Source: Klebsiella sp. RHBSTW-00484 (GTDB lineage Bacteria; Pseudomonadota; Gammaproteobacteria; Enterobacterales; Enterobacteriaceae). From it: 64,000 nt of DNA. The notes below the pieces were generated by a model, which saw nothing but the letters and a program-made list of their open reading frames with translations, had not been told where the DNA came from and did not search any database. Shown one piece after another: positions 2-11,851 of this stretch (position 1 is its first letter; each line of letters opens with the position of its first letter). Both the position numbers and the translations under genes were made by a program. The stretch lies in assembly GCF_013705725.1 (NCBI RefSeq), contig NZ_CP055481.1:1426001-1490000 (forward strand), given 5' to 3'.

Positions 2-1360
2 TTTTTTGAAAAACGCGCGCCGGGGGATGTTTTCAGCCGCTTTATTGCCTGGCAGAGCGGCATGCTGCAAAAAATTGAGCTGGATAACGGCCTGCGCTCG
101 GACTGGATTATTTGCGTTATCGCCATCGGCATCATGTTCTGGATCTCCCCGGTGCTGGCGCTGATTTCCGCCGTGGGCATTGTGGTGATGGGGTTAATTA
201 GCGTCTGGGCGATATTTCGCGACCGCTGGTATACGCAGCAGCTTCAGCTCAAGAGCGCGGTGCTAAATGACTTTTTTATGGAGACCCTTCAGGGGGTATT
301 AACCATTAAAACCGCCGGGCTGGAAACCCAGCGCAAAGCGCAGTTTGCCCGCCTGTCGCATGACCTTTTTACCTGCCTGCAACGGCAGAAAGTCTATCAA
401 CAAGTGAAAGACGGGCTGTATCAGCTGACCGGCAGCCTCGAAATGGTAGTTTTTATGCTGGTAGTGCTGCCGCTGGTGCATGCAAAACAGATCTCCCTGG
501 GCGACTTCTTTGCCTACAGCTTTTTGCGGCAAATTTTTACCTCCTACGTCACGCGGATGTTCTATGCCGTTATCCGTAAGTCGCAACTGCATGTGATTGA
601 TACCCGCGCACAGGGATTGTTTACGAAGCATGAGCTTGCTTCTCCCCTGATTTCTCCGCTCAGCGGAACAGCGGTTCCGCGACTGGCGTTCGAGCGGGTG
701 AGCTTTCATTACAACCCGCAAAGGCCAGTATTAAACGCGGTGGACCTCATACTTGAACCTGGCGATCAGATAGCCATTGTCGGCGATTCCGGTGCCGGAA
801 AAAGCACTTTGCTGCGGCTGATGACCGGGCTTTTTCCCGCACAGCAGGGGCGGATTTTGTTGAACAATGCAGAGGCAAGCGCTCCACAGCTGACGTCGCA
901 GGTGTGGTTGCAGAGTCAGGAGGACATCCTGTTTAACGCCTCGGTGCTGCAAAACATCACCCTGTTTGACCCGTGGTACAGCGACAGCGAACGTGGGCGC
1001 GTGGAAGCACTTGTCAGCAAAATGGCGCTGGGGCCGGTGGTTCAGGCGCTGCCGGGGGGAATGGAAGCGCTGATTCGCGAGAGCCACTCTGCGCTCTCTT
1101 TAGGCCAGCGCCAGCGGCTGATGCTGGCGAGGGCGCTCTACAGCACCCGACCGATTTTACTGTTCGATGAGCCTACCGCCAATCTTGATGATGAAACCGC
1201 AGAGACGGTGATCGCCGCGCTGTGTCAGCACTGCCGCGAACAGGGCAAGACGCTGATTGTCGTGACCCACAGCGAGCTGATTGTGAACCACTTTGCGCGA
1301 GTATATCGCCTGAACGAAGGCGAGCTGCGCGATATCGGGCAGGGAGCGGCGGGCCAATGA
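2..1360 (+). CDS. Peptide/bacteriocin-type ABC exporter, 5' end outside window
   Basis: The reading frame is open from base 2, so the start lies upstream. About 452 residues are visible. The first residues (FFEKRAPGDVFSRF) match the transmembrane domain of CvaB/LcnC-type exporters, and hydrophobic segments follow at visible residues about 35-75 and 145-170. The ATPase domain shows Walker A (GDSGAGKST), a signature LSLGQRQR in place of the usual LSGGQ, Walker B (ILLFDEPTANLDD) and the H-loop His (VVTHSE). Family members usually carry an N-terminal C39 peptidase that removes double-glycine leaders; whether this one does cannot be seen. The stop overlaps the next start by 4 bp, which implies translational coupling with the MacA-like gene. 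The likely role is inner-membrane export of a peptide or peptide-derived product. A general toxin or lipid ABC exporter is the alternative. Confidence 0.85.
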   Translation, partial: FFEKRAPGDVFSRFIAWQSGMLQKIELDNGLRSDWIICVIAIGIMFWISPVLALISAVGIVVMGLISVWAIFRDRWYTQQLQLKSAVLNDFFMETLQGVLTIKTAGLETQRKAQFARLSHDLFTCLQRQKVYQQVKDGLYQLTGSLEMVVFMLVVLPLVHAKQISLGDFFAYSFLRQIFTSYVTRMFYAVIRKSQLHVIDTRAQGLFTKHELASPLISPLSGTAVPRLAFERVSFHYNPQRPVLNAVDLILEPGDQIAIVGDSGAGKSTLLRLMTGLFPAQQGRILLNNAEASAPQLTSQVWLQSQEDILFNASVLQNITLFDPWYSDSERGRVEALVSKMALGPVVQALPGGMEALIRESHSALSLGQRQRLMLARALYSTRPILLFDEPTANLDDETAETVIAALCQHCREQGKTLIVVTHSELIVNHFARVYRLNEGELRDIGQGAAGQ

Positions 1361-2517
1361 TGCGAGGATTATTACGCCAACGCAAAACGTGGCTGTTTGC
1401 GCTGATCGCGATCGTAGCCATCATCGTCGCCGTTCTTTATCAGCGCGCGCTGCCGGCGCAGGCCGAATCGCTCTATACCGTCGCCCTCGATCGTGGAGAT
1501 ATCGAAAAAGTGGTGCTGGCGAGCGGCATCATCAAACCAGCCGTCCAGGTGAGCGTTGGCGCTCAGGTCAGCGGGCAGTTGCGCAAGCTGTTTGTTCGTC
1601 AAGGGGAGCGGGTGCAAAAAGGGCAACTGCTGGCCGAAATCGACCCGACTTTACAGCTTTCAGACTTACGTAACGCCACCGCACAGCTGGCCAGCGCCAG
1701 AGCGCAGAAGTTAGCCTCTGAAGCGACGCTGGTGCAGTACCGCAAAGCGCTGACCCGCGAGCAGACCATGAACCGCGATGGCTCTGGTGTGAACAGCGAC
1801 CTTGAACAGGCGCAGGCGCAATATGCCGCGCAGGTTCAGCAGATTGCGGTCAATGAGGCGCAGATTGTGCAAGCGGAAATGAGCGTGCAGACCGCCAACG
1901 CCAACCTCGGCTATACGCGCATTCTCGCCCCTATGGACGGCGAAGTACTCGGCATTGTCACCCGTGAAGGGCAAACCATCGTATCTTCACAAATTGCGCC
2001 GACTATTCTGGTGCTTGCCGACCTCGATAAAATGCAGGTGCAAACGCGTATTTCCGAAGCCGATATCCAGAAAATCCATCCCGGACAGCCGCTGTGGTTT
2101 TACGTGATTGCCGACCCGCAAACGCGTTATGAGGGGGAGCTTGGCTATGTCCAGCCCGCGCCGCAGGAGGCGCTGGAAGAGCAAAACTCAGGGGCTTCCG
2201 CCAGCAATCAGCAAAGCACTGCCATTTACTACAACGGCACCTTTGAGGTGGATAACCGCCAGCGGCTACTGAAAACCTCGATGACCGCGCAGGTGTTTAT
2301 CCGCATTGCGCAGGCCAAGGAGGCGCTGCGGGTTCCAGTTGCTGCGCTGGGGCGTTCGCTGGGCAATGAACGCTATCTGGTGGTGGTGCAGAAGGCGAAC
2401 GGCAGCGAGGAGCGCACCGTTCGTATCGGCATTAACGACCGCCAGTACGCACAGGTCCTTGAAGGCTTGCAGCCCGGTGAGCGGGTGGTGATCCCGCAGG
2501 ATGCAGGGTCAATCTGA
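1357..2517 (+). CDS. MacA-like periplasmic adaptor of a tripartite exporter
   Basis: A 386-residue protein with one N-terminal membrane anchor (residues about 10-30), then a lipoyl/barrel-sandwich half (VSVGAQVSGQLRKLFV), a long helical hairpin and the second half (LGYTRILAPMDGEVL). This is the membrane-fusion-protein architecture of MacA/HlyD adaptors, which bridge an inner-membrane ABC pump to an outer-membrane channel. The start overlaps the previous stop as ATGA at 1357; an ATG at 1360 is equally possible. MacA of E. coli is 371 residues, so the length fits. The MacB-like gene begins on the last base of its stop codon. It is named by family because it sits in a dedicated biosynthetic operon rather than the housekeeping macAB locus. 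Confidence 0.9.
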   Translation: MMRGLLRQRKTWLFALIAIVAIIVAVLYQRALPAQAESLYTVALDRGDIEKVVLASGIIKPAVQVSVGAQVSGQLRKLFVRQGERVQKGQLLAEIDPTLQLSDLRNATAQLASARAQKLASEATLVQYRKALTREQTMNRDGSGVNSDLEQAQAQYAAQVQQIAVNEAQIVQAEMSVQTANANLGYTRILAPMDGEVLGIVTREGQTIVSSQIAPTILVLADLDKMQVQTRISEADIQKIHPGQPLWFYVIADPQTRYEGELGYVQPAPQEALEEQNSGASASNQQSTAIYYNGTFEVDNRQRLLKTSMTAQVFIRIAQAKEALRVPVAALGRSLGNERYLVVVQKANGSEERTVRIGINDRQYAQVLEGLQPGERVVIPQDAGSI

Positions 2518-4460
2518 TGGTGAAGCCTTTAATCCAGCTTAATAACGTCACCCGCTCTTTTATCGCCGGAACGCAGACGATACCGGTGCTGAAATCGGTG
2601 TCCCTGACCATTATGCCCGGCGAAATGGTAGCGATTATGGGCGCTTCCGGCTCGGGTAAATCGACGCTGATGAACATTATCGGCTGCCTGGACAAACCCA
2701 GCAGCGGCGAGGTTTATATCAACGGTATTGCCACTCATCAGGCCGATAGCGCGGCGCTTGCCGAACTGCGTAGCCGCTGGCTGGGATTTATTTTTCAGCG
2801 CTATCACCTGATGCCTTATTTAACGGCGGAAGAGAACATCGCCATTCCCGCCTTATATACCGCGATGCCTGCAACTGAACGTCAGGCGCGAATCGCGCTG
2901 CTGGCGGGAAAGTTGGGCATTGATACGCGCTTAGGGCATAAACCCGCGCAGCTCTCCGGCGGGCAGCAGCAGCGGGTCAGCGTGTGCCGGGCGCTGATCA
3001 ACGGCGCGCAGATTATTCTTGCTGATGAACCCACCGGGGCGCTGGATAGCGCCAGCGGCAGGGCGCTAATGGATGTTCTGCACCAGCTGAACGCCGATGG
3101 CCACACGGTGATTATCGTGACTCACGATCGCGAGGTGGCGCAGCAGGCGCAGCGGATCGTCGAGATCAGCGATGGGCAAATTGTTGCCGTTCGCACGAAT
3201 TGCGCTCAGGACAAGCGTGATATTCAGCGGTTGCCGGCGGTGCAGGATAACGGTCGGGCGTCGCTGTCGCGCAGCGTAGGCGAGTCGGTACGAATGGCAT
3301 GGCGTGCGCTGTTGGGCCATCGGATGCGCGCCTTTTTGTCGATGCTGGGGATTATTATCGGCATCTCATCTGTGGTTTCTTCGATGGCGGTAGGAGAAGG
3401 TGCCCGACAAACCATCATGAACGAGATTGGCAAACTGGGTAATACCACGCTCGAAATTCGCCCCGGTACCGGTTGGGGCAGCAAGCGCCCGGATATGGAA
3501 CGCGCGCTGTCGCTGGAGGATATCACCAGCCTCAGCAAGCAGCCCTGGGTGCTGGGAGTGTCGCCGATTGTCTCAAGCATGACTACCGCGGTGCGCCAGG
3601 GCCTGGATTCTTCGATGATTCTCTCCGGGGTTTCCGCCGACTATTTTTCGTTGCAGGGGATTCGCTTTATTCAGGGCAACGGTTTTACCCTGCGCGACGT
3701 CAACGACCGGGAGCCGGTACTGGTGCTGGATGAGACCAGTAAAGAGACGCTGTTTCCCGGCAATGAAGATCCGCTGGATAAAATCGTGCAAATCGCCGGT
3801 GCGCCGTGGCGGGTGATCGGCGTTGCCAGCAAGCCGGGGCCGAAAGTGGTCAGCGGGTTTATGTCGGCGTGGATCCCCTACACCTCGCTATTACAGCGGA
3901 TTTCCGGCGATAAGCCGCTGGAGGCGCTAACGCTGCGCTTTCAGGAGACGCTGTCGCCGAGAGAGGCCGCGCAGCGTGCGGAAAGGCATCTTATTCGCGA
4001 GCACGGCAAAAAAGATTTCTTTGTCCAGACCGACGAACAGCTCGCCAAAGCGCTGCAAAAAACCTCCGATTCAATGTCGCTGCTGATCACCGCGATTGCC
4101 GCTATCTCACTACTGGTCGGCGGCGTTGGGGTGATGAATATCATGCTGGTTTCCGTTACCGAGCGAACCCATGAGATCGGTATCCGACTCTCGGTTGGCG
4201 CGCGTCCCTCCGACATCATGCATCAGTTTTTGATTGAGGCGGTGATGATCTGCGCGCTCGGCGGGCTGACGGGGGTCATTGGCTCCTGGGCCGCCGGGAA
4301 CCTGTTTGCTCTGCTGACGCAGGAGTTCTCGATGGTCTTTACGTGGCTCCCGGTGGCGATGGCCTGCGGCTTTTCCGCTCTGATTGGCCTGACGTTTGGC
4401 TATTTCCCGGCGCGGCGAGCGGCGCGACTCAACCCGACGGAGGCGCTGGCCCGCGAATGA
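2517..4460 (+). CDS. MacB-like ABC pump (ATPase fused to permease)
   Basis: A 647-residue protein with an N-terminal ATPase (Walker A GASGSGKST, signature LSGGQQQR, Walker B ILADEPTGALD, H-loop VTHD). A transmembrane helix at about residue 270 is followed by a large periplasmic domain (about 300-510) and three C-terminal helices of the FtsX/MacB permease fold (KTSDSMSLLITAIAAISLLV onward). This order and length match MacB, which works as a mechanotransmitter with MacA and TolC. The gene overlaps the MacA-like stop (TGATG), and its own stop overlaps the next start (ATGA). Known MacAB-TolC-type pumps export amphipathic peptides, enterotoxin STII or siderophores, so a periplasmic intermediate of the operon product is a plausible substrate. 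That substrate is inferred. Confidence 0.92.
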   Translation: MVKPLIQLNNVTRSFIAGTQTIPVLKSVSLTIMPGEMVAIMGASGSGKSTLMNIIGCLDKPSSGEVYINGIATHQADSAALAELRSRWLGFIFQRYHLMPYLTAEENIAIPALYTAMPATERQARIALLAGKLGIDTRLGHKPAQLSGGQQQRVSVCRALINGAQIILADEPTGALDSASGRALMDVLHQLNADGHTVIIVTHDREVAQQAQRIVEISDGQIVAVRTNCAQDKRDIQRLPAVQDNGRASLSRSVGESVRMAWRALLGHRMRAFLSMLGIIIGISSVVSSMAVGEGARQTIMNEIGKLGNTTLEIRPGTGWGSKRPDMERALSLEDITSLSKQPWVLGVSPIVSSMTTAVRQGLDSSMILSGVSADYFSLQGIRFIQGNGFTLRDVNDREPVLVLDETSKETLFPGNEDPLDKIVQIAGAPWRVIGVASKPGPKVVSGFMSAWIPYTSLLQRISGDKPLEALTLRFQETLSPREAAQRAERHLIREHGKKDFFVQTDEQLAKALQKTSDSMSLLITAIAAISLLVGGVGVMNIMLVSVTERTHEIGIRLSVGARPSDIMHQFLIEAVMICALGGLTGVIGSWAAGNLFALLTQEFSMVFTWLPVAMACGFSALIGLTFGYFPARRAARLNPTEALARE

Positions 4461-5854
4461 AACTAGGGACTTTTTTACCGCTGATCCTGCTGCTCACGGG
4501 CTGCGGGAACCTGACCCGCAGCGATTATCAGCGACCGCTGTTGTCGGTGCCGGAAAACTGGCAGCGAACGGAAGAGCAGAATATCGCCCCTTCGCAGGTG
4601 GAAGATGGCCGCTGGTGGGATCGATTCGGCGACGAGCGTTTGTCGCGCGTGATGGGTCAGGTACTGGAAAGCAATAACGATCTGGCCGCTGCCGCATTAA
4701 CTCTCAAGCAGGCGCGCATTTCTGCCGGACTAACCCAGACCAATATCAGTCCCGACGCGACGCTCAACGGCTCCGGCAGCAATTCGAAGCCGTTAAACAG
4801 CGGGCGTTCGCAGGAGAGCTACAGCACCTCGTTGTCGCTGAGCTATGAACTGGATCTCTGGGGCAAGCTGGCGCGTATTCGCGAACAAAGTGAGTGGGAA
4901 GCGGTTGCCAGCGAGCAGGATTATCACGCGACGATCCTGTCGACGATTGATACCACCGCGCAGCTCTACTGGAACATCGCCCTGCTAAATCAGCAAATGG
5001 CTTATCAGGAGGTGAGTTTCGATATTGCCAGGCAGACGCTAGCGCAGATTGAGTCCTGGCAGCGGGAGGGGAAAGTTGGACGACTTGATGTTCTACAGGC
5101 CCGGCAGACGGTGATCAGCCGCCAGAATCAGCTGCTCGCCCTGAAGCAGCAGCGGGCGATTTCGCGCAACGCGCTGGCGCTGCTGCTCAACCGCCCACCG
5201 TCGCAGCATACCGATGAGGCCCATACGCTGGATGTTCGCCAGCACGTCGCCATTGCCAACGCCACGCCGTTGGCCGCGCTCGCCAGTCGTCCGGATCTTC
5301 AGGCGGCGGAATCGCGCCTGCGTGCGGCGCTGGCGGGCTCAGATGCCGCGCGGCTGAGCTTCTATCCCACGCTTTCGTTGCAGGGAACGCTTAGCGCCGG
5401 AAGCCAGATTTTTCACCAATGGTTTAACGATCCGCTACGCACCGTCGGCGGCAGCGTGAGCGCGCCCTTTATCCAGTGGAACACGGTGCAGCTCACCGTG
5501 GAACAGGCCAGCGTAAAGGTGCAGCAGGAGGCAGTGAACTTCCGCCGCACGGCCTATACCGCGCTGTCGGAAGTGGACAACGCCATGGAGAAGCGGCTCA
5601 ACGCCGACGAGCAGCGAGATCGCTTGCTGCAATCTCTACAACTGGGCCAGCAGCGCCTGACGCTTACCGAGAGCCGCTATCGTGCAGGCGCGGTGGATTA
5701 TCAGACCCTGCTGAACGCCCAGGATGCGCTGCTTGATGTGCAAAACAGCCTTGCGCAAAACCAGTACGACTATCTTTATGCCACTTTGCAGCTTTGGCTG
5801 GCGCAAGGTGGCAGTAACCCGCAACAGAGGACATCCCAAAATGAGTCACAGTAA
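4457..5854 (+). CDS. TolC/NodT-type outer-membrane efflux lipoprotein
   Basis: A 465-residue protein starting at the ATG that overlaps the macB-like stop by 4 bp. The signal ends in a lipobox (LLLLTGCGN), so it should be lipidated on the Cys at about residue 17. The remainder shows the duplicated helical repeats of the outer-membrane efflux family: LSYELDLWGKLARIREQSE in the first half, and the Arg-Pro-Asp-Leu motif (ASRPDLQAAESRLRAA) and LTESRYRAGAVDYQTLLNAQ in the second. It probably forms the outer-membrane duct for the MacAB-like pump, giving the operon its own complete exporter instead of borrowing TolC. Its 3' end overlaps the ketosynthase start by 14 bp. Confidence 0.92.
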   Translation: MKLGTFLPLILLLTGCGNLTRSDYQRPLLSVPENWQRTEEQNIAPSQVEDGRWWDRFGDERLSRVMGQVLESNNDLAAAALTLKQARISAGLTQTNISPDATLNGSGSNSKPLNSGRSQESYSTSLSLSYELDLWGKLARIREQSEWEAVASEQDYHATILSTIDTTAQLYWNIALLNQQMAYQEVSFDIARQTLAQIESWQREGKVGRLDVLQARQTVISRQNQLLALKQQRAISRNALALLLNRPPSQHTDEAHTLDVRQHVAIANATPLAALASRPDLQAAESRLRAALAGSDAARLSFYPTLSLQGTLSAGSQIFHQWFNDPLRTVGGSVSAPFIQWNTVQLTVEQASVKVQQEAVNFRRTAYTALSEVDNAMEKRLNADEQRDRLLQSLQLGQQRLTLTESRYRAGAVDYQTLLNAQDALLDVQNSLAQNQYDYLYATLQLWLAQGGSNPQQRTSQNESQ

Positions 5855-7094
5855 ACCCCCTTATCGCGTGGTAATTACCGGCTATGGCGCGGTGACTCCC
5901 CTTGGCGACAGCGCCGCCGAAAGCTGGCAGGCGATCATGGATTACCGTCACGGCTATCGCTATGTGGATTTGTCGTCCTACGGTATCCACACCCATTTTA
6001 TTGGCCAGGTAGAGAACGAACCGAGCCTCAAGGGCGTTCCTGCCGCCATTCGTCGGCGTCTGCCGCGCCATGCGCGCCTGGCGCTGGCCGCCGCGCGCGA
6101 AGCCATGGCGATGGCTTTTGCCGGTGAATCGCCCGCCGCGTTCTACGATCCGCTGATGTGTGGCGCGATTATCGGTTCCGGCTGGGCGGGGCTGGATGAG
6201 AGTTACCTGGCGGTGCCGGAGTTTGAGAAAAAAGGCGTCTCTTCACCTTTTAGCTGCTTCTTTTCGATGCCGAACGTGACTACCGCAGCCTGTAGCCAGC
6301 TGTGGAATCTGCGCGGCTATCAAAATACCCCTGTCGCCGCCTGTGCTACCGGCACTATTGCTATCGGCGAGGCCTATGATGCGATTCGCTTTGGTCGCGC
6401 CAGCATGATGCTTGCCGGGGCCGGGGAGTCGTTGAACAGTACCTGCGCTATCTGGAATATCGACGTGCTTGGCGCGCTAAGCCGGGAAACGGAATCGCCG
6501 GAACGGGCCAGCTGCCCGTTCAGCCAGCAGCGCAGCGGGTTTGTGCTCTCGGAAGGGGGCGCGGTGCTGTGCCTGGAAGAGCGCGAGAGCGCCCTCGCGC
6601 GCGGGGCGACGATCCTCGCGGAAGTGACCGGCTATGCCAATTTCTCCGATGCGGTAGATTTTACCTCGCCCGCAGAAGACTGCGTGGCCCGCGAACAGAC
6701 CATTCGCTGGGCGCTGCGCAGTGCGGATCTCCAGCCCTCTGACCTCGACTACATTAATGCCCACGGCACCTCCACGCCGCTTAATGATATTAATGAAACA
6801 CAGTCGCTGAAAAAGGCGCTGGGCCACGAGGCGTATCGGATCCCGGTCTCCAGCACCAAAGCCTACTCCGGGCATTTGATAGCAGCGGCGGGAAGCTTCG
6901 AGACCATTGTCTGCCTGCAGGCGATGGCGAACGGGATCATGCCCGCGACGGCGCATTTAACCCAGCCCGACCCGCTGTGCGATCTCGACTATATTGCCGA
7001 AGGGCATCGCCAGGGAGAGATTCGCCGGGCGTTGAATCTGAGCTTTGGTTTTGGCGGCGCGAACGCCGCGCTGGTGCTGGAGAAACACGCGTGA
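5841..7094 (+). CDS. Beta-ketoacyl-ACP synthase (FabF-like)
   Basis: A 417-residue condensing enzyme. The full catalytic triad is visible: Cys168 in ACATGT, His308 in NAHGTSTPLND and His345 in STKAYSGHL, with the conserved Lys340. The spacing is almost the same as in FabF. It would condense an acyl primer with malonyl-ACP. The start ATG at 5841 lies inside the end of the TolC-like gene (14 bp overlap), and its stop overlaps the following GTG start, so it is part of the same transcript as the exporters. It is not the housekeeping fabF, which sits with the fab genes in enterobacteria. No partner chain-length factor is seen. It could make a special fatty acyl chain or a short polyene. Confidence 0.9.
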   Translation: MSHSKPPYRVVITGYGAVTPLGDSAAESWQAIMDYRHGYRYVDLSSYGIHTHFIGQVENEPSLKGVPAAIRRRLPRHARLALAAAREAMAMAFAGESPAAFYDPLMCGAIIGSGWAGLDESYLAVPEFEKKGVSSPFSCFFSMPNVTTAACSQLWNLRGYQNTPVAACATGTIAIGEAYDAIRFGRASMMLAGAGESLNSTCAIWNIDVLGALSRETESPERASCPFSQQRSGFVLSEGGAVLCLEERESALARGATILAEVTGYANFSDAVDFTSPAEDCVAREQTIRWALRSADLQPSDLDYINAHGTSTPLNDINETQSLKKALGHEAYRIPVSSTKAYSGHLIAAAGSFETIVCLQAMANGIMPATAHLTQPDPLCDLDYIAEGHRQGEIRRALNLSFGFGGANAALVLEKHA

Positions 7095-7897
7095 CGCGGC
7101 TGTACTACACCCTGGCCGATGCTCATCAGTGGGCGGCATTTTCCGGCGATGACAACCCCATTCACTTCGATCTTTCGGCAGCGCGTGCGATGGGCGGCAG
7201 TCAACTGAGCGTCCACGGGATGCGCGCGCTGCTGGATGTGAAACGTGATGTTCAGTCGCGGCTGGCGTATCCGTCATCCCGCGCTGAAGGTTATCTGAAA
7301 TGTCAGGTACGCCTGCGCAGGCCGCTGTGGTGCGAAGCCGACTGGCTGTTAACGCCGGGACCAGCAAAAAACCGCGTGTTATCCGCCGCGTCGGTCACGG
7401 ATCCGCACAATGATGAAGTCTGTTTGTCATGCCAGATGAGCCTGGCGGCTGAACCGGAATCGCTGGTGGGGAAACAGCCCAGCGAACTTGATTCTAAAAC
7501 GCTGCTTGCTCTGCAATCCCACTTCAACAGCGCCTGGCCCGACCTGGCGCAGTGGCAATTTCTTGATGCACTGCTCTTTCGTCAGCTGATTAGCGATAAA
7601 GCGCTGCTGAATCAGGAGAACATTGCGGCCCTGCTCGACCAGGGGGAAACCTCGTTACAGCAAATTTTTACCCGCTATCCGGTGTTGCAAACTCATCAGG
7701 AGGTGATTTTCGATGCCCGATTTGCGGGTAAAGGAGCACCGATCTGGCCTGAATCCCTGTCGCTCTGGCTGCTACCCTCGCTGGTGGTCGGACAGGTTGA
7801 ACAGGGTGCGCTGGTGCGTATCGCGGCAGCGGCACAGCTCAATGACCAGATTATGACCAATGTGATTACGCTGAAAGTTGGCCCAATTAATAATTGA
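7091..7897 (+). CDS. MaoC-like hot-dog dehydratase/hydratase
   Basis: A 268-residue protein starting at GTG 7091, which overlaps the ketosynthase stop by 4 bp. The N-terminus carries the hydratase-2 motif (FSGDDNPIHFD), with the Asp and His expected to act on the beta-hydroxyacyl substrate, followed by a Gly-rich VHGMRALL stretch. That is the hallmark of MaoC-type (R)-specific hydratases and dehydratases. The C-terminal half (about residues 140-268) has no motif I recognise and may be a second, degenerate hot-dog domain. In this operon it would dehydrate the 3-hydroxyacyl-ACP made by the downstream reductase. No dedicated enoyl reductase is present in the window, so the product could keep double bonds, or the cell's FabI could supply that step. 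Confidence 0.8.
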   Translation: MTRLYYTLADAHQWAAFSGDDNPIHFDLSAARAMGGSQLSVHGMRALLDVKRDVQSRLAYPSSRAEGYLKCQVRLRRPLWCEADWLLTPGPAKNRVLSAASVTDPHNDEVCLSCQMSLAAEPESLVGKQPSELDSKTLLALQSHFNSAWPDLAQWQFLDALLFRQLISDKALLNQENIAALLDQGETSLQQIFTRYPVLQTHQEVIFDARFAGKGAPIWPESLSLWLLPSLVVGQVEQGALVRIAAAAQLNDQIMTNVITLKVGPINN

Positions 7898-7914
7898 TAA
7901 TTAAGGATAATTTT

Positions 7915-8166
7915 ATGATTCAGTATGATGAAATTCTGCAAAAAGTATGTGAAATGATCTGTGATGCCAAAGACCTGGAGCCCGATGAGGTCGATGAGAA
8001 TACGCCCCTCGTGCGGCTGAAATTAGATAGCCTCGACTACGTCGAGCTGATGGTACTGGCAAAGCGTGAATTCAACATCACGCTGGAGGCGGACTGGTTT
8101 ATTCACAATCCGGGGATCACTCTCGGCGAGCTGTGCCAGCACATCAGTAAAGAGTCAGGCCACTGA
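7915..8166 (+). CDS. Acyl carrier protein
   Basis: An 83-residue acidic protein with the phosphopantetheine attachment motif LDSLDYVELM, Ser39 being the modified residue. Size and helix pattern fit a type II acyl carrier protein. The ATG at 7915 is preferred to the upstream in-frame ATG at 7894 because an AAGGA ribosome site lies about 8 bases ahead of it. It is the only gene of the operon with a real gap before it (17 bp). It would carry the chain built by the neighbouring ketosynthase, dehydratase and reductase. No phosphopantetheinyl transferase gene is visible in the window. Confidence 0.88.
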   Translation: MIQYDEILQKVCEMICDAKDLEPDEVDENTPLVRLKLDSLDYVELMVLAKREFNITLEADWFIHNPGITLGELCQHISKESGH

Positions 8167-8167
8167 T

Positions 8168-8905
8168 ATGGCGCAGAAATGGATACTGGTTACCGGTGGT
8201 AGCCGCGGCATCGGTCGGGCGCTGGTGATGGGGTTGGCGAAAAGCTGGAATGTGGTGTTTACCGGTCGCAATGAAGCGGCGATCAACGACATCCAGGCGC
8301 AGGCGAGCGGAGACGATTCATCCCATTGGGTGCGAGGTTACGCCTGCGATGGCAACGACGAAGCGTGGGTTGAACAGCTTGCGCAGTCGCTACTGGCCGA
8401 GTGGGGCGCGCCGGAGGCGATTATCCACAATGCCGGGATCGCCCGTGATGGCCTGCATATTCATCAGAATGCGGCAATCTGGCGCGAGGTGCTGGAGACT
8501 AACGTTATCGCAATGATGAACTGGAACCGGGTTCTGCTGCCGGCGATGCTGATGCAGCGACGCGGTTCTATCGTGATGATGTCATCGGTCAGCGCGCTCA
8601 AGGGTAACGTCGGTCAGACGGCCTATGCTGCGAGCAAAGCGGCGATGGGCGGTATGGCGCGTTCACTGGCGTTGGAGGTCGGGCGTTTCGGTATCCGGGT
8701 GAACTGCCTGGCGCCGGGCTTGATTCGTACTGAAATGCTTGAAGAGATCCCGGCACAAAAATTAAAAGAGATGCGCCAGTCGATACCGCTGCGCAGATTG
8801 GGTGAAACGGATGATGTGCTTCAGGCGGTGGCGTTTTTAATCGGTGAGGGGAGTCAATATATCACCGGCCAGACCCTGGTGCTGGACGGCGGACTGAGTG
8901 CCTGA
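8168..8905 (+). CDS. 3-oxoacyl-ACP reductase (FabG-like SDR)
   Basis: A 245-residue short-chain dehydrogenase. The cofactor motif TGGSRGIGR lies at residues 9-17, NAG at 88-90, and the catalytic Ser140, Tyr153 and Lys157 are in place (SSVSALKG, YAASK). The ending VLDGGL is typical of FabG. The Arg in the cofactor motif suggests NADPH. It starts one base after the acyl carrier protein stop and ends the operon; a hairpin follows at 8910-8939. It should reduce the beta-keto group of the acyl chain made by the upstream ketosynthase. Confidence 0.9.
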   Translation: MAQKWILVTGGSRGIGRALVMGLAKSWNVVFTGRNEAAINDIQAQASGDDSSHWVRGYACDGNDEAWVEQLAQSLLAEWGAPEAIIHNAGIARDGLHIHQNAAIWREVLETNVIAMMNWNRVLLPAMLMQRRGSIVMMSSVSALKGNVGQTAYAASKAAMGGMARSLALEVGRFGIRVNCLAPGLIRTEMLEEIPAQKLKEMRQSIPLRRLGETDDVLQAVAFLIGEGSQYITGQTLVLDGGLSA

Positions 8906-8939: not shown

Positions 8940-10106
8940 TTAAGTGCGGGGGGCGAGTTGTTCGATACGCGTTACTAGCTCTTTTATCTCTGTTGCGGTC
9001 GCGCGATAAATTTGAATAATCTGCGAAGAGTTTTGTGCGACCAGAGATACAACCAGCTGATGTATTTCATCCCCCTGGTTATGTTTAATTAACCGAGCCA
9101 GCGATTTCTCTTCTGCCCGTGAGTTGGTTAACGCATGGACCACCTGACGACTGACTGCGATAAGTGCCGCATACGGATTGGGGCTATCTTGCAGGATACC
9201 CCACTCAGCAATATCATCAATTTCTTCAATTGGATAGAGTGAACGCAGCGCTTTATCTGGCGAAGCCGAACCCTCATGCGGCGGGCTATGATCAAGACAC
9301 GCAATATTATGCAATAACCCACCAATCTCAACTTTTAGGCTTTGCATCGCGCTCATGTCCATTTTTGTCGCCAGATAACCGGCAATATGTCCGACAGCAG
9401 AGGAGTGCCAAGGTGTCTGCTGGCTGAACTGATCGATAATAAACGAGAGCAATTCGGCAATATCACGTAGGTTGTGTAAAGAAATAGTATCGTTATGAAT
9501 TCTTGGGATTTCTTTAATGTAATCCCGATAGTCAGAGGAGGCCATCACCGACCAAAAGTGTTCATTGCTGGAGAGGGTTCTGAAGGCCTGAATGTACTCT
9601 TCTTTATAGAGAATATTTGCCCCGGCAGTCACGATTTCGAGGAGTTTCTTGCCTAAGAAGGGCACATGACTGGTGCGGTGCTGGCAATAAAGGACATCCA
9701 GCCGATCGGCAAAGAATAGCAGATGGCTTTCTTCGGGGACCAGTTCCCCTTCGATGTAATGCCCCAGGCCTTTTCGCCAGTGGGTGTGGTGATAGCGGAC
9801 AATCCTGTTCAATGGGCGAAATAGAGGAATTCTGCTGAGTAATTCGCTGCCAATAAGCGCATGGTTGTTATGTTCATCATCAATGTAACTAAGCGGTTCA
9901 AGACGCGATTTTTCATTCAATCCGCCGATATCATGGATGAGGGCCGCAAGAACGGTTTTACGACGCTGAGCCGAAGAGAAATGAACTAAATTAGCCAGGT
10001 GCGATACGATAAAAGCAGTTCTGACATGATGCAGATTCAGCTTAGGATTAATCATATCAAGGGTATTTGCGATGCTGGCTAATGTAGGAAGTAAATGTAT
10101 CTTCAT
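8940..10106 (-). CDS. Tandem HD-domain protein (HD-GYP-like)
   Basis: A 388-residue cytoplasmic protein with two HD-fold halves. The first has a nearly complete metal-binding pattern: HHVR at about residue 26, the LIHDIGG pair at about 57, HALIGSELL and VRYHHTHW further on, as in HD-GYP cyclic-di-GMP phosphodiesterases, although a GYP triad is not seen. The second half (about residues 230-350) begins HSSAVGHIAGYLA and has HNIACLDH where HD would be expected, so it is probably non-catalytic. It may degrade a cyclic nucleotide or act as a regulatory scaffold. It lies between the biosynthetic operon and a membrane-regulator pair, and its link to either is unknown. Confidence 0.65.
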   Translation of the reverse strand: MKIHLLPTLASIANTLDMINPKLNLHHVRTAFIVSHLANLVHFSSAQRRKTVLAALIHDIGGLNEKSRLEPLSYIDDEHNNHALIGSELLSRIPLFRPLNRIVRYHHTHWRKGLGHYIEGELVPEESHLLFFADRLDVLYCQHRTSHVPFLGKKLLEIVTAGANILYKEEYIQAFRTLSSNEHFWSVMASSDYRDYIKEIPRIHNDTISLHNLRDIAELLSFIIDQFSQQTPWHSSAVGHIAGYLATKMDMSAMQSLKVEIGGLLHNIACLDHSPPHEGSASPDKALRSLYPIEEIDDIAEWGILQDSPNPYAALIAVSRQVVHALTNSRAEEKSLARLIKHNQGDEIHQLVVSLVAQNSSQIIQIYRATATEIKELVTRIEQLAPRT

Positions 10107-10152: not shown

Positions 10153-10626
10153 TTATTTGCGCTCGCAGCCATATTGCGGGAACGTTTGGTTGCCGAATAA
10201 AATAGTATCATCATTGACTCGATTTATATAGATGATTCTATCATTAGTTTGGCCGCCAAAGAGAGTCTGTTGTGCAATGTTTTCCGGTGTATTATCGGCG
10301 CTGTGACGAATTATCCTGGCATCAGCAATATGAAAAAGAGAGCTGCTGGCAGAATGTTTTTTTAATGTGTAGGTGATGCTGCGTGAGATGATATATTTAT
10401 CCCTATCACTGGTGAGTAATCCTTCAGCGCTGATTAAAAACCGATCGTTTGAATATTCTACAGATAGCAAGCCTTGTGAGCGTAGAATACTCTCATTTGT
10501 GTTCTCCGTCAGATCGTATTGCGACTCACAGGAAAAAGGCGGATGACTGTTGAGGCGAATATAAAAAATTAACAATGCTATTAGTGTTGGTATACAAATC
10601 GCAAATATTAAGACATATTTACGCAT
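10153..10626 (-). CDS. Small membrane-anchored protein, likely partner of the CadC-like regulator
   Basis: I do not recognise this 157-residue protein. It has one N-terminal transmembrane segment (residues about 5-24) after a short positive stretch and a polar domain that should face the periplasm. Three Cys are present (one near residue 34, one near the C-terminus and one in the membrane segment), so a disulphide is possible. Its start overlaps the end of the upstream membrane regulator by 8 bp, so the two are translated together. That arrangement resembles ToxR-ToxS and TcpP-TcpH pairs, where the small partner stabilises or tunes the regulator. The function is inferred from position only. 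Confidence 0.55.
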   Translation of the reverse strand: MRKYVLIFAICIPTLIALLIFYIRLNSHPPFSCESQYDLTENTNESILRSQGLLSVEYSNDRFLISAEGLLTSDRDKYIISRSITYTLKKHSASSSLFHIADARIIRHSADNTPENIAQQTLFGGQTNDRIIYINRVNDDTILFGNQTFPQYGCERK

Positions 10627-11359
10627 TTTTTATTTCCTTATAGTAGTAACTATGGCATTTTTGGTACTTAAGATCGCATTCCAGTATGAATATGTCCATA
10701 TAAATGCCTAAGTCCTGTTCTTCGCTCATCTGCCGATTGAAAAAGTATATTTTCTTTGGCGTAGAACAATCGAGCCCGGAGGGGAGCAGTTTTTGATTCC
10801 TGAGTATTTCTGTTGCAGATATGCTGCCTGTGCCGTAAATGGTGCATTTATCCTGAGTGAGGAAAATGCCAGATGATTGTTTTTTATGGATAAAAAAGTA
10901 AGAGAGGAGCATGAGACCGGCAGCGATCAGGATAAATAAAATGATCGTTTTGCGATGTTGCCCGATCGTCATAGGCTCAGGGGGTTCTGGGGAAAGAGTC
11001 GGGAGAGAGAAAGATGTGTGATAATCACTATCGGTGGTAATAATAATTTCATTAGAAATCTTAAAACCGATTCGCGGCACCGTAATAATCACATTTTTCT
11101 CAATTCCAAGGTCAGACAAGCTACGGCGCAGTGTGGATATATATTGATTCAGATTACTATTAGAAGGTCTGGCACCATATTGTTCAAACACCGTCTGAAA
11201 AATATCAACACGCGAGATAATATCTTCCCGATATTGCAGCAGACAGCTAAGAAGGCGAGTAGATGTGGCTGATAGTTCAATACAATCGCCAGTCAACAAG
11301 TTGACCAGAGAGGCCTCCTCAGTGTCAAAAGTAATAAATCCCTCTATATCGAACCGCAT
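10619..11359 (-). CDS. CadC/ToxR-like membrane transcription regulator
   Basis: A 246-residue protein. Residues 1-105 form a winged-helix DNA-binding domain of the OmpR/ToxR type (LLTGDCIELSATSTRLLSCLL, the recognition-helix region NSNLNQYISTLRRSL, the wing ITVPRIGFKI). A Pro-rich linker and one transmembrane helix (about residues 140-160, IILFILIAAGLMLL) follow, then a small periplasmic sensor domain of about 85 residues. The ATG at 11359 is chosen over a GTG 12 bases upstream because GGAG sits 6 bases before it. The gene is more AT-rich than its neighbours, which fits horizontally acquired regulators. Targets are unknown; the HD gene, the small partner and the PapI-like gene are the nearest candidates. 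Confidence 0.8.
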   Translation of the reverse strand: MRFDIEGFITFDTEEASLVNLLTGDCIELSATSTRLLSCLLQYREDIISRVDIFQTVFEQYGARPSNSNLNQYISTLRRSLSDLGIEKNVIITVPRIGFKISNEIIITTDSDYHTSFSLPTLSPEPPEPMTIGQHRKTIILFILIAAGLMLLSYFFIHKKQSSGIFLTQDKCTIYGTGSISATEILRNQKLLPSGLDCSTPKKIYFFNRQMSEEQDLGIYMDIFILECDLKYQKCHSYYYKEIKNA

Positions 11360-11530
11360 TTTTATCTCCACACGGAATTAAAAATTCACTCTTTATATCA
11401 GGGGTTTTATCATAAAAAAAAGTGAATTTCAGATAAATGTACTGTTTAAATTGAAATTTAAAGCTAATGTTGCCGTTTTAGTGTGGTCAATCCATACTGC
11501 AGTTCATTGAATGACAGAAGGAACTGACTC

Positions 11531-11851
11531 ATGAAGATTGTAACTTCATCCCGTATCCCTGATTTACATCATGGTTCTGGCGCTGCTGTTGAAAGCTTAA
11601 GGTCATTGATGACCGCCATGGGTATCAATAAATTCTCTGGAGTGAACGTTCCAGAGCAGGAGTATATTCTTTTTGTATTAAAAGAACATGAGCCTGAGGG
11701 GCTACTTACTCGTGAATTAGCTGACAGATGTGAAATGTCAATATATAAAGTCAGACATTTGTTGCTGCCTTTGGAGAAGTATGGTCAGGTGAACAGAATA
11801 AAAATCAAAAAACATCATAAGTGGTATATTTATAATAAACATATTGATTGA
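11531..11851 (+). CDS. PapI/FaeA-like winged-helix regulator
   Basis: A 106-residue protein. Residues about 40-103 (EYILFVLKEHEPEGLLTRELADRCEMS, then LLLPLEKYGQVNRI) form a small winged helix like PapI, FaeA and PefI, which work with Lrp in phase-variable control of fimbrial operons. AAGGA lies about 10 bases before the ATG. The gene is divergent from the CadC-like regulator and AT-rich. No fimbrial structural gene is visible in the window, so it is either an orphan or a remnant of a lost fimbrial locus. The N-terminal 35 residues are not part of the recognised fold. Confidence 0.65.
   Translation: MKIVTSSRIPDLHHGSGAAVESLRSLMTAMGINKFSGVNVPEQEYILFVLKEHEPEGLLTRELADRCEMSIYKVRHLLLPLEKYGQVNRIKIKKHHKWYIYNKHID

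Follow-up and report, generated by a model that had tools for sequence, protein, structure and literature searches.

One may ask what is made by an operon in which a peptide exporter and a MacAB-like pump are encoded side by side with a set of fatty-acid enzymes. Such an operon opens a 64,000-nucleotide stretch (bases 1,426,001-1,490,000, hereafter the window) of contig 1 of a 6.9-Mb Klebsiella genome, which its best relatives place near the K. oxytoca group. The answer that we consider fairly probable is that its product is a small secreted peptide with disulfide bonds and a fatty acyl chain, which acts together with a neighbouring chaperone-usher fimbria. Eight frames of the operon reach into the window, all on the plus strand: the C-terminal 452 aa of a C39-peptidase ABC exporter (2..1360), a MacA-like periplasmic adaptor (1357..2517; NF008606 298.8 bits, below the cut-off of 342), a MacB-like ABC transporter with ABC_tran, MacB_PCD and FtsX matches (2517..4460; NF007826 709.4 bits, below the cut-off of 966), a NodT-type (NodT/OEP) outer membrane channel lipoprotein with a lipobox cysteine (4457..5854), a FabF-like ketosynthase (KS; 5841..7094), a MaoC-like dehydratase (DH; 7091..7897) with a GTG start and a D-x-N-P-x-H motif, an acyl carrier protein (ACP; 7915..8166) with a D-S-L phosphopantetheine site, and a FabG-like ketoreductase (KR; 8168..8905) with the YxxxK tyrosine and lysine. 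The DH match to the MaoC-like family is weak (E 6.9e-5, 22.9 bits, under the Pfam cut-off of 27). A preliminary description of the window had named these eight frames, their families and their overlapping or nearly abutting ends, and all of this was confirmed, with gaps of -14 to +17 bases (from the exporter to the KR: -4, -1, -4, -14, -4, +17, +1); it had also placed the KS residues Cys168-His308-His345 correctly.

The same description held that the precursor and maturation genes would be found upstream of base 1, and most of the predicted parts are there, on the plus strand (coordinates marked L009 refer to a stretch that includes 16 kb upstream of the window, in which window base x is base x+16000). 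The precursor of 69 aa (L009:13138-13347) belongs to DUF4762 (PF15959; E 4.4e-23, 81.4 bits against a curated cut-off of 27); its leader of 15 residues ends in Gly-Gly, and its core contains five cysteines. It is followed by a DsbA-like protein with a CxxC motif (L009:13618-14286) and by an acyltransferase of 316 aa (L009:14289-15239) without any Pfam or NCBIfam match, the gene of which starts 2 bases past the DsbA gene and ends 9 bases before the exporter gene. The latter, in full length, encodes 703 aa (L009:15249-17360), and the C39 domain lies at its N-terminus (E 4.9e-23, Pfam). Thus the C39 peptidase domain and the short double-glycine frame that were to be looked for upstream are both present; as to the acyltransferase or radical SAM gene, an acyltransferase was found, and the upstream proteins gave no radical SAM match in Pfam. 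Neither an aryl-polyene cluster nor another known cluster appeared there. The opinion that no enterobacterial system with this set had been described agrees with the literature search, in which no paper on DUF4762 or on this gene set was found, although most subscription papers were outside its coverage, so that this absence is no proof.

The set is not peculiar to the window. Genome contigs scanned with an alignment of the acyltransferase, which is the anchor (loci without it are invisible), yielded 60 further Enterobacterales loci that carry the set precursor-DsbA-acyltransferase-C39 ABC-MacA-MacB-channel-KS-DH-ACP-KR, complete or missing a few genes. The carriers belong to Klebsiella, Cedecea, Citrobacter, Enterobacter, Trabulsiella, Hafnia, Providencia, Erwinia, Pantoea, Yersinia, Serratia, Rahnella and other genera, and since order and strand, those of the eight window genes included, recur across so many of them, the operon is not a chance grouping. 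With the window's locus counted in, the C39 ABC exporter, MacA, MacB, channel, KS and ACP are present in 61/61 loci, DH in 56/61, DsbA in 55/61 and KR in 55/61, some loci having genes in pieces. A precursor lies beside the cluster in 58/61 (54 detected by phmmer, and L087, L088, L093 and L099 on reading); of the others, the genome of L089 carries one in its second cluster, that of L091 carries three at other places, and L072 is truncated on both sides by contig ends. The functional residues are kept too: KS Cys168, His308 and His345, each in 61/61 sequences, the phosphopantetheine serine of ACP in 61/61, the lipobox cysteine of the channel in 60/60, D, N and H of the DH motif in 56/56, and Tyr and Lys of the KR in 54/54.

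Precursor and acyltransferase also keep company across genomes. Of the 295 genomes sampled from the family, 29 have a DUF4762 match and 34 an acyltransferase match; all 29 are within the 34, and 0/261 genomes without the acyltransferase have a DUF4762 match, while the five with the acyltransferase alone (G035, G253, G267, G270 and G286, the last having the same contig and coordinates as G683) still have a precursor. Orphan precursors occur in G016, G070, G078 and G162, and each of these genomes has the acyltransferase. When 369 genomes of the class were sampled, the window's own genome was the sole match to either query.

By fold match the acyltransferase is of the LpxM and PatA type, the fold shared by LpxL, LpxM and PatA, while its sequence profile gave in the PDB two weak hits alone, both to other kinds of protein. 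An acid motif, H140-x3-D144, is present in 60/60 sequences; the catalytic motif of the LpxL/LpxM/PatA family is H-x4-D/E. Since the fold is nearest to that of lipid and sugar acylators, it can be argued that the operon is an aryl-polyene-like or lipid-A-like lipid pathway, the product of which is pumped by MacAB, with the peptide as a regulator, carrier or accessory. Aryl-polyene clusters comprise KS, hotdog-type DH, ACP, KR and an LPLAT-type acyltransferase together with head-group genes (ammonia lyase, ligase), a KS-CLF pair and an MMPL exporter, and the first five are all present here (DH with a match below the Pfam cut-off), a subset which counts in favour of this explanation. However, none of the ten operon proteins is recognised by Pfam as an ammonia lyase, a second KS/CLF, an AMP ligase or an MMPL exporter, the cluster having a peptide precursor and peptide exporters instead, and KS scores best against FabF structures (260.7 bits) and lower against 6smo (220.7 bits), which we take to be an aryl-polyene KS. 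Membership of the aryl-polyene family was therefore rejected. Moreover, the C39 exporter (61/61) and the adjacent precursor (58/61) are kept, whereas DH and KR are both missing in five loci, so that a lipid pathway appears very improbable.

Where the chain would be attached is suggested by the precursors themselves. In a set of 54 chosen precursors (mean column identity 40%) strict invariance is confined to G14, G15, C36, K45 and G47, while M1, K3, A9, C21, C42, D44 and C61 are nearly invariant. In a second set of 100 database homologues [DN]-K-x-G is retained in 99, the exception being a 48-aa form without that stretch, and the core is otherwise highly variable. K45 is thus a candidate acyl site, the alternative being a structural turn, as D-K-x-G is common as a hairpin turn. 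The predicted model of the precursor (low confidence, mean pLDDT 64.5) has strands at 20-30, 33-43 and 49-55, and in it C21 would face C42, with K45 in the turn after that strand. Disulfide pairs C21-C42 and C36-C61, which we infer, fit the joint loss of C21 and C42 in two Rahnella 2-Cys precursors.

The preferred reading, an acylated and oxidised peptide, can then be put as a sequence of steps. The precursor with its double-glycine leader would be synthesised, and KS, KR and DH would build or lengthen an acyl chain on the dedicated ACP; since the operon encodes neither an enoyl reductase nor a malonyl transferase, the chain would be partly unsaturated or completed by the fatty-acid enzymes of the host. 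The LpxM/PatA-fold enzyme would attach this chain to the peptide, the side chain of Lys45 in the D-K-x-G turn being the most likely site, after which the C39 ABC exporter would cut off the leader and move the core into the periplasm, the DsbA-like protein would form the two disulfides, and MacA-MacB with the private outer-membrane lipoprotein channel would expel the product. Finally, the peptide would work jointly with the fimbria made next door, its target being a competing bacterium or a host cell. The preliminary description had proposed an acylated peptide or a polyene-like product as what the operon produces and secretes; this is supported in part, as the anatomy fits the former, acylation itself being predicted from sequence, and the chain may or may not be a polyene.

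Two parts of this route have precedents in print. The available part of PMC5985334 describes that MacAB-TolC expels from the periplasm the two-disulfide peptide STII after its oxidation by DsbA; STII enters through Sec, while entry through the C39 exporter and acylation are proposed here. In pyoverdine synthesis, as given in the accessible text of PMC6206403, acylated ferribactin is brought to the periplasm most likely by PvdE, finished there, and the finished product is partly expelled by PvdRT-OpmQ; this resembles the proposed route in its acylated peptide, ABC exporter and tripartite pump. Pyoverdine differs in being a non-ribosomal product that loses its acyl chain in the periplasm. PvdRT we take to be MacAB-like.

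The same export machinery could serve a simpler product, i.e., an unacylated disulfide peptide of the class II microcin kind, in which case the fatty-acid genes and the acyltransferase would make or modify a separate lipid for tolerance or envelope repair. A double-glycine leader of about 15 residues, a C39 ABC exporter and a small core are hallmarks of class II microcins such as MccV and MccPDI in the portion of PMC5311971 consulted, and here Gly-Gly is found in 54/54 precursors together with a C39-peptidase ABC exporter; the export of STII by MacAB-TolC also favours this explanation. In contrast, class II microcins use a CvaA-type adaptor and host TolC, whereas the operon has its own MacA-MacB, NodT-type channel and DsbA-like gene. 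The adaptor matches the HlyD model TIGR01843 with 56.4 bits (cut-off 208.65) and is MacA-like (298.8 bits). A fatty-acid set and an acyltransferase are added, and no immunity gene was found in the operon. Production of MccPDI, as reported in the same partial source, is independent of the producer's dsbA, dsbB and dsbD (PMC5311971). What tells against a plain microcin is that KS, ACP and exporter occur together in 61/61 acyltransferase-anchored loci, that the acyltransferase gene is fitted so closely between DsbA and exporter genes, and that a plain peptide has no evident need for an invariant Lys-x-Gly; we hold it to be rather unlikely. An incomplete Klebsiella 'bacteriocin' with dsbA and TIGR03651 is mentioned in the accessible part of PMC9125672; TIGR03651 is not among the NCBIfam matches of the DsbA-like protein of the window's genome.

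With selidamides, goadvionins and lipolanthines the system would share a ribosomal peptide bearing an acyl chain. In selidamides, according to the section of PMC9505594 available, the chain is placed on side chains of Lys or (hydroxy)ornithine by GNAT-type transferases, but here the candidate enzyme has the LpxM/PatA fold and its own ACP and KS, and none of the ten operon proteins has a GNAT match in Pfam. Nor does Pfam detect a lanthionine synthetase in the operon. The system therefore departs in at least one tested feature from each of class II microcins, aryl-polyene clusters and selidamides. It is a variant among leader-processed, exported peptides and would be categorically new only if peptide acylation by an LpxM/PatA-fold enzyme were shown.

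The strongest contextual signal, a repeated pairing with chaperone-usher fimbriae, lay outside the view of the preliminary description. In the window's genome such a fimbrial operon (L009:5591-12340, plus strand) precedes the precursor gene. A chaperone-usher operon or usher is found within 20 kb on the same strand in 54/61 loci, at an expectation of 0.047 ushers per locus (from the usher density of 24 genomes). In 36/61 the usher lies at most 10 kb upstream; of the other 25 loci, 18 have a same-strand usher no more than 20 kb from the acyltransferase, the usher lying upstream in L078 and downstream in the other 17. The remaining seven are L072 and L083, on short contigs, L088, where the contig ends just past the cluster and no usher lies within 10 kb upstream, L099, with an usher at 26 kb, and L059, L089 and L091, with none near. 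As the loci are not independent because of shared descent, the relationships of the ushers are a stronger point than the counts. Against the window's usher, unbroken upstream ushers score at least 572 bits, the 18 others 219-270 bits, and 19 chosen unassociated ushers 200-266 bits. In a tree built with a quick method, 22 upstream ushers form one clade (SH-aLRT 100), 16 of the 18 form another, one falls among unassociated ushers and the last sits on a long branch. Because the ushers belong to separate clades, the pairing arose more than once: at least twice, judging from these sequences, and probably more often.

This repeated pairing also supports the explanation that the same machinery delivers a peptide aimed at host (animal, insect or plant) cells, peptide and fimbria being an adhere-and-deliver pair. 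Such a target is compatible with the preferred reading, and we regard it as a real though tentative possibility. F4/K88-like fae genes lie 4-12 kb past the KR gene on a Salmonella plasmid, an E. coli plasmid has SEF14/CS22-type genes 12-16 kb ahead of the acyltransferase, and several carriers are named after insect hosts or guts. No conserved immunity-like frame was found either: the precursor-DsbA gap (270 bases in the window's genome) holds 15 candidate frames across the 54 loci in which both genes were detected by phmmer, none common to more than three other loci, and the longest in the window's genome matches frames of just three other loci. A conserved immunity gene in this gap was thus rejected, and from DsbA to KR the operon of the window's genome is too tightly packed to leave room for one, though such a gene may lie elsewhere. 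On the other side stand Rahnella and Pantoea among the carriers, which are usually met in water and on plants, and the variable cores, which are typical of bacteriocins too.

Several observations weigh against an acylated peptide acting with a fimbria. The lack of an immunity-like frame is unusual for a bacteriocin. The C39 domain has Asn at its third catalytic position in 55/55 sequences, where Asp is usual, the acyltransferase motif is H-x3-D rather than that of its family, and enzymes of this fold acylate lipids and sugars too, so the peptide is not the sole possible acceptor. The precursor model is weak, and the invariance of D-K-x-G could be structural. Five Serratia loci (L090, L092-L095) have KS followed by ACP and keep the acyltransferase, with no DH or KR in the operon, which bears on which chain is made. 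Loci without an adjacent DsbA gene have mostly 2-Cys precursors; this match is imperfect, and a strict link of DsbA with 4-Cys precursors was rejected, as in Chimaeribacter (L091) no DsbA gene adjoins the cluster although the precursors, which lie in trans, are of the 4-Cys kind. In L059 precursor and DsbA are standard but an usher is lacking nearby, and another E. coli plasmid shows no annotated fimbrial gene within 14 kb, its gene table being incomplete.

A bolder proposal, which we put forward tentatively, is that of a novel class of ribosomal lipopeptides in Enterobacterales, in which an LpxM/PatA-fold lysine acyltransferase would place a custom KS-ACP chain on the lysine of K-x-G, the oxidised lipopeptide would leave through a private MacAB, and the unit would have been wired repeatedly to fimbriae of separate lineages as an attach-and-deliver device. 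DUF4762 thereby gains a function to look for, and a new route to lipidated ribosomal peptides, with a lipid-A-type acyltransferase instead of a GNAT, is predicted. Adhesive fimbriae and a secreted peptide would work as a single unit, both in common gut bacteria and on plasmids.

On plasmids the acyltransferase was detected by tblastn in 14 of 72,556 records (10 Escherichia, 2 Salmonella, 1 Chimaeribacter, 1 Serratia), nine of the 14 typed as conjugative; E. coli genomes searched with its DNA at the 'distant' setting gave no match. Gene order was inspected on four of the plasmids, two from E. coli and one each from Salmonella and Serratia. On the two E. coli plasmids the genes from DsbA to KR are arranged as at the window's locus, and the Salmonella plasmid carries acyltransferase to KR with DsbA not annotated; on all three the precursor is not next to DsbA, but each has one, with Gly-Gly and D-K-x-G, at another place. 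The Serratia plasmid (L114) has the order and precursor type of L099 and L101, two loci with a different gene order and a distinct 2-Cys precursor, beside which no DsbA was found. Eight precursors of this second type were found, seven with K-[DNS]-G near the C-terminus. Orphan DUF4762-type precursors, some paired, lie at L107:5445-6322, L108:6512-7378, L106:6291-6533 and L109:6366-6644, on stretches without an acyltransferase from genomes that carry the machinery elsewhere; possibly they are extra substrates in trans.

Some minor observations concern regulation and the surroundings. A LuxR-type regulator (L009:12363-13034, plus strand; GerE match just under the cut-off) stands between the fimbrial operon and the precursor gene. 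Scans for promoters and terminators across the precursor and DsbA genes gave counts close to those of shuffled controls, and an Rfam search gave no match. In the window's genome the usher frame (L009:6840-9314, some 6.7-9.2 kb ahead of base 1) has an in-frame stop after 607 codons, whereas 22 relatives have usher frames of more than 700 aa; hence the fimbriae may not be made in this strain. In 3/3 loci examined, inverted repeats lie between a 182-aa tyrosine recombinase of FimB/FimE size and the fimbrial genes (L115:1398-1740, L126:3205-3534, L128:9585-9939; arms of 27-36 nt, 75-85% complementary, spaced by 271-283 nt), and these may form a fimS-like phase switch. A MobA/VirD2-type relaxase (L009:1536-2699) and an HNH endonuclease (L009:3310-4653), both encoded upstream of the fimbrial operon, hint at an integrated mobile element. 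Downstream of the operon, beyond an HD-domain gene (8940-10106) and a winged-helix Trans_reg_C gene (10619-11371), both on the minus strand, the window encodes a small FaeA-like (PF04703) regulator at 11531-11851.

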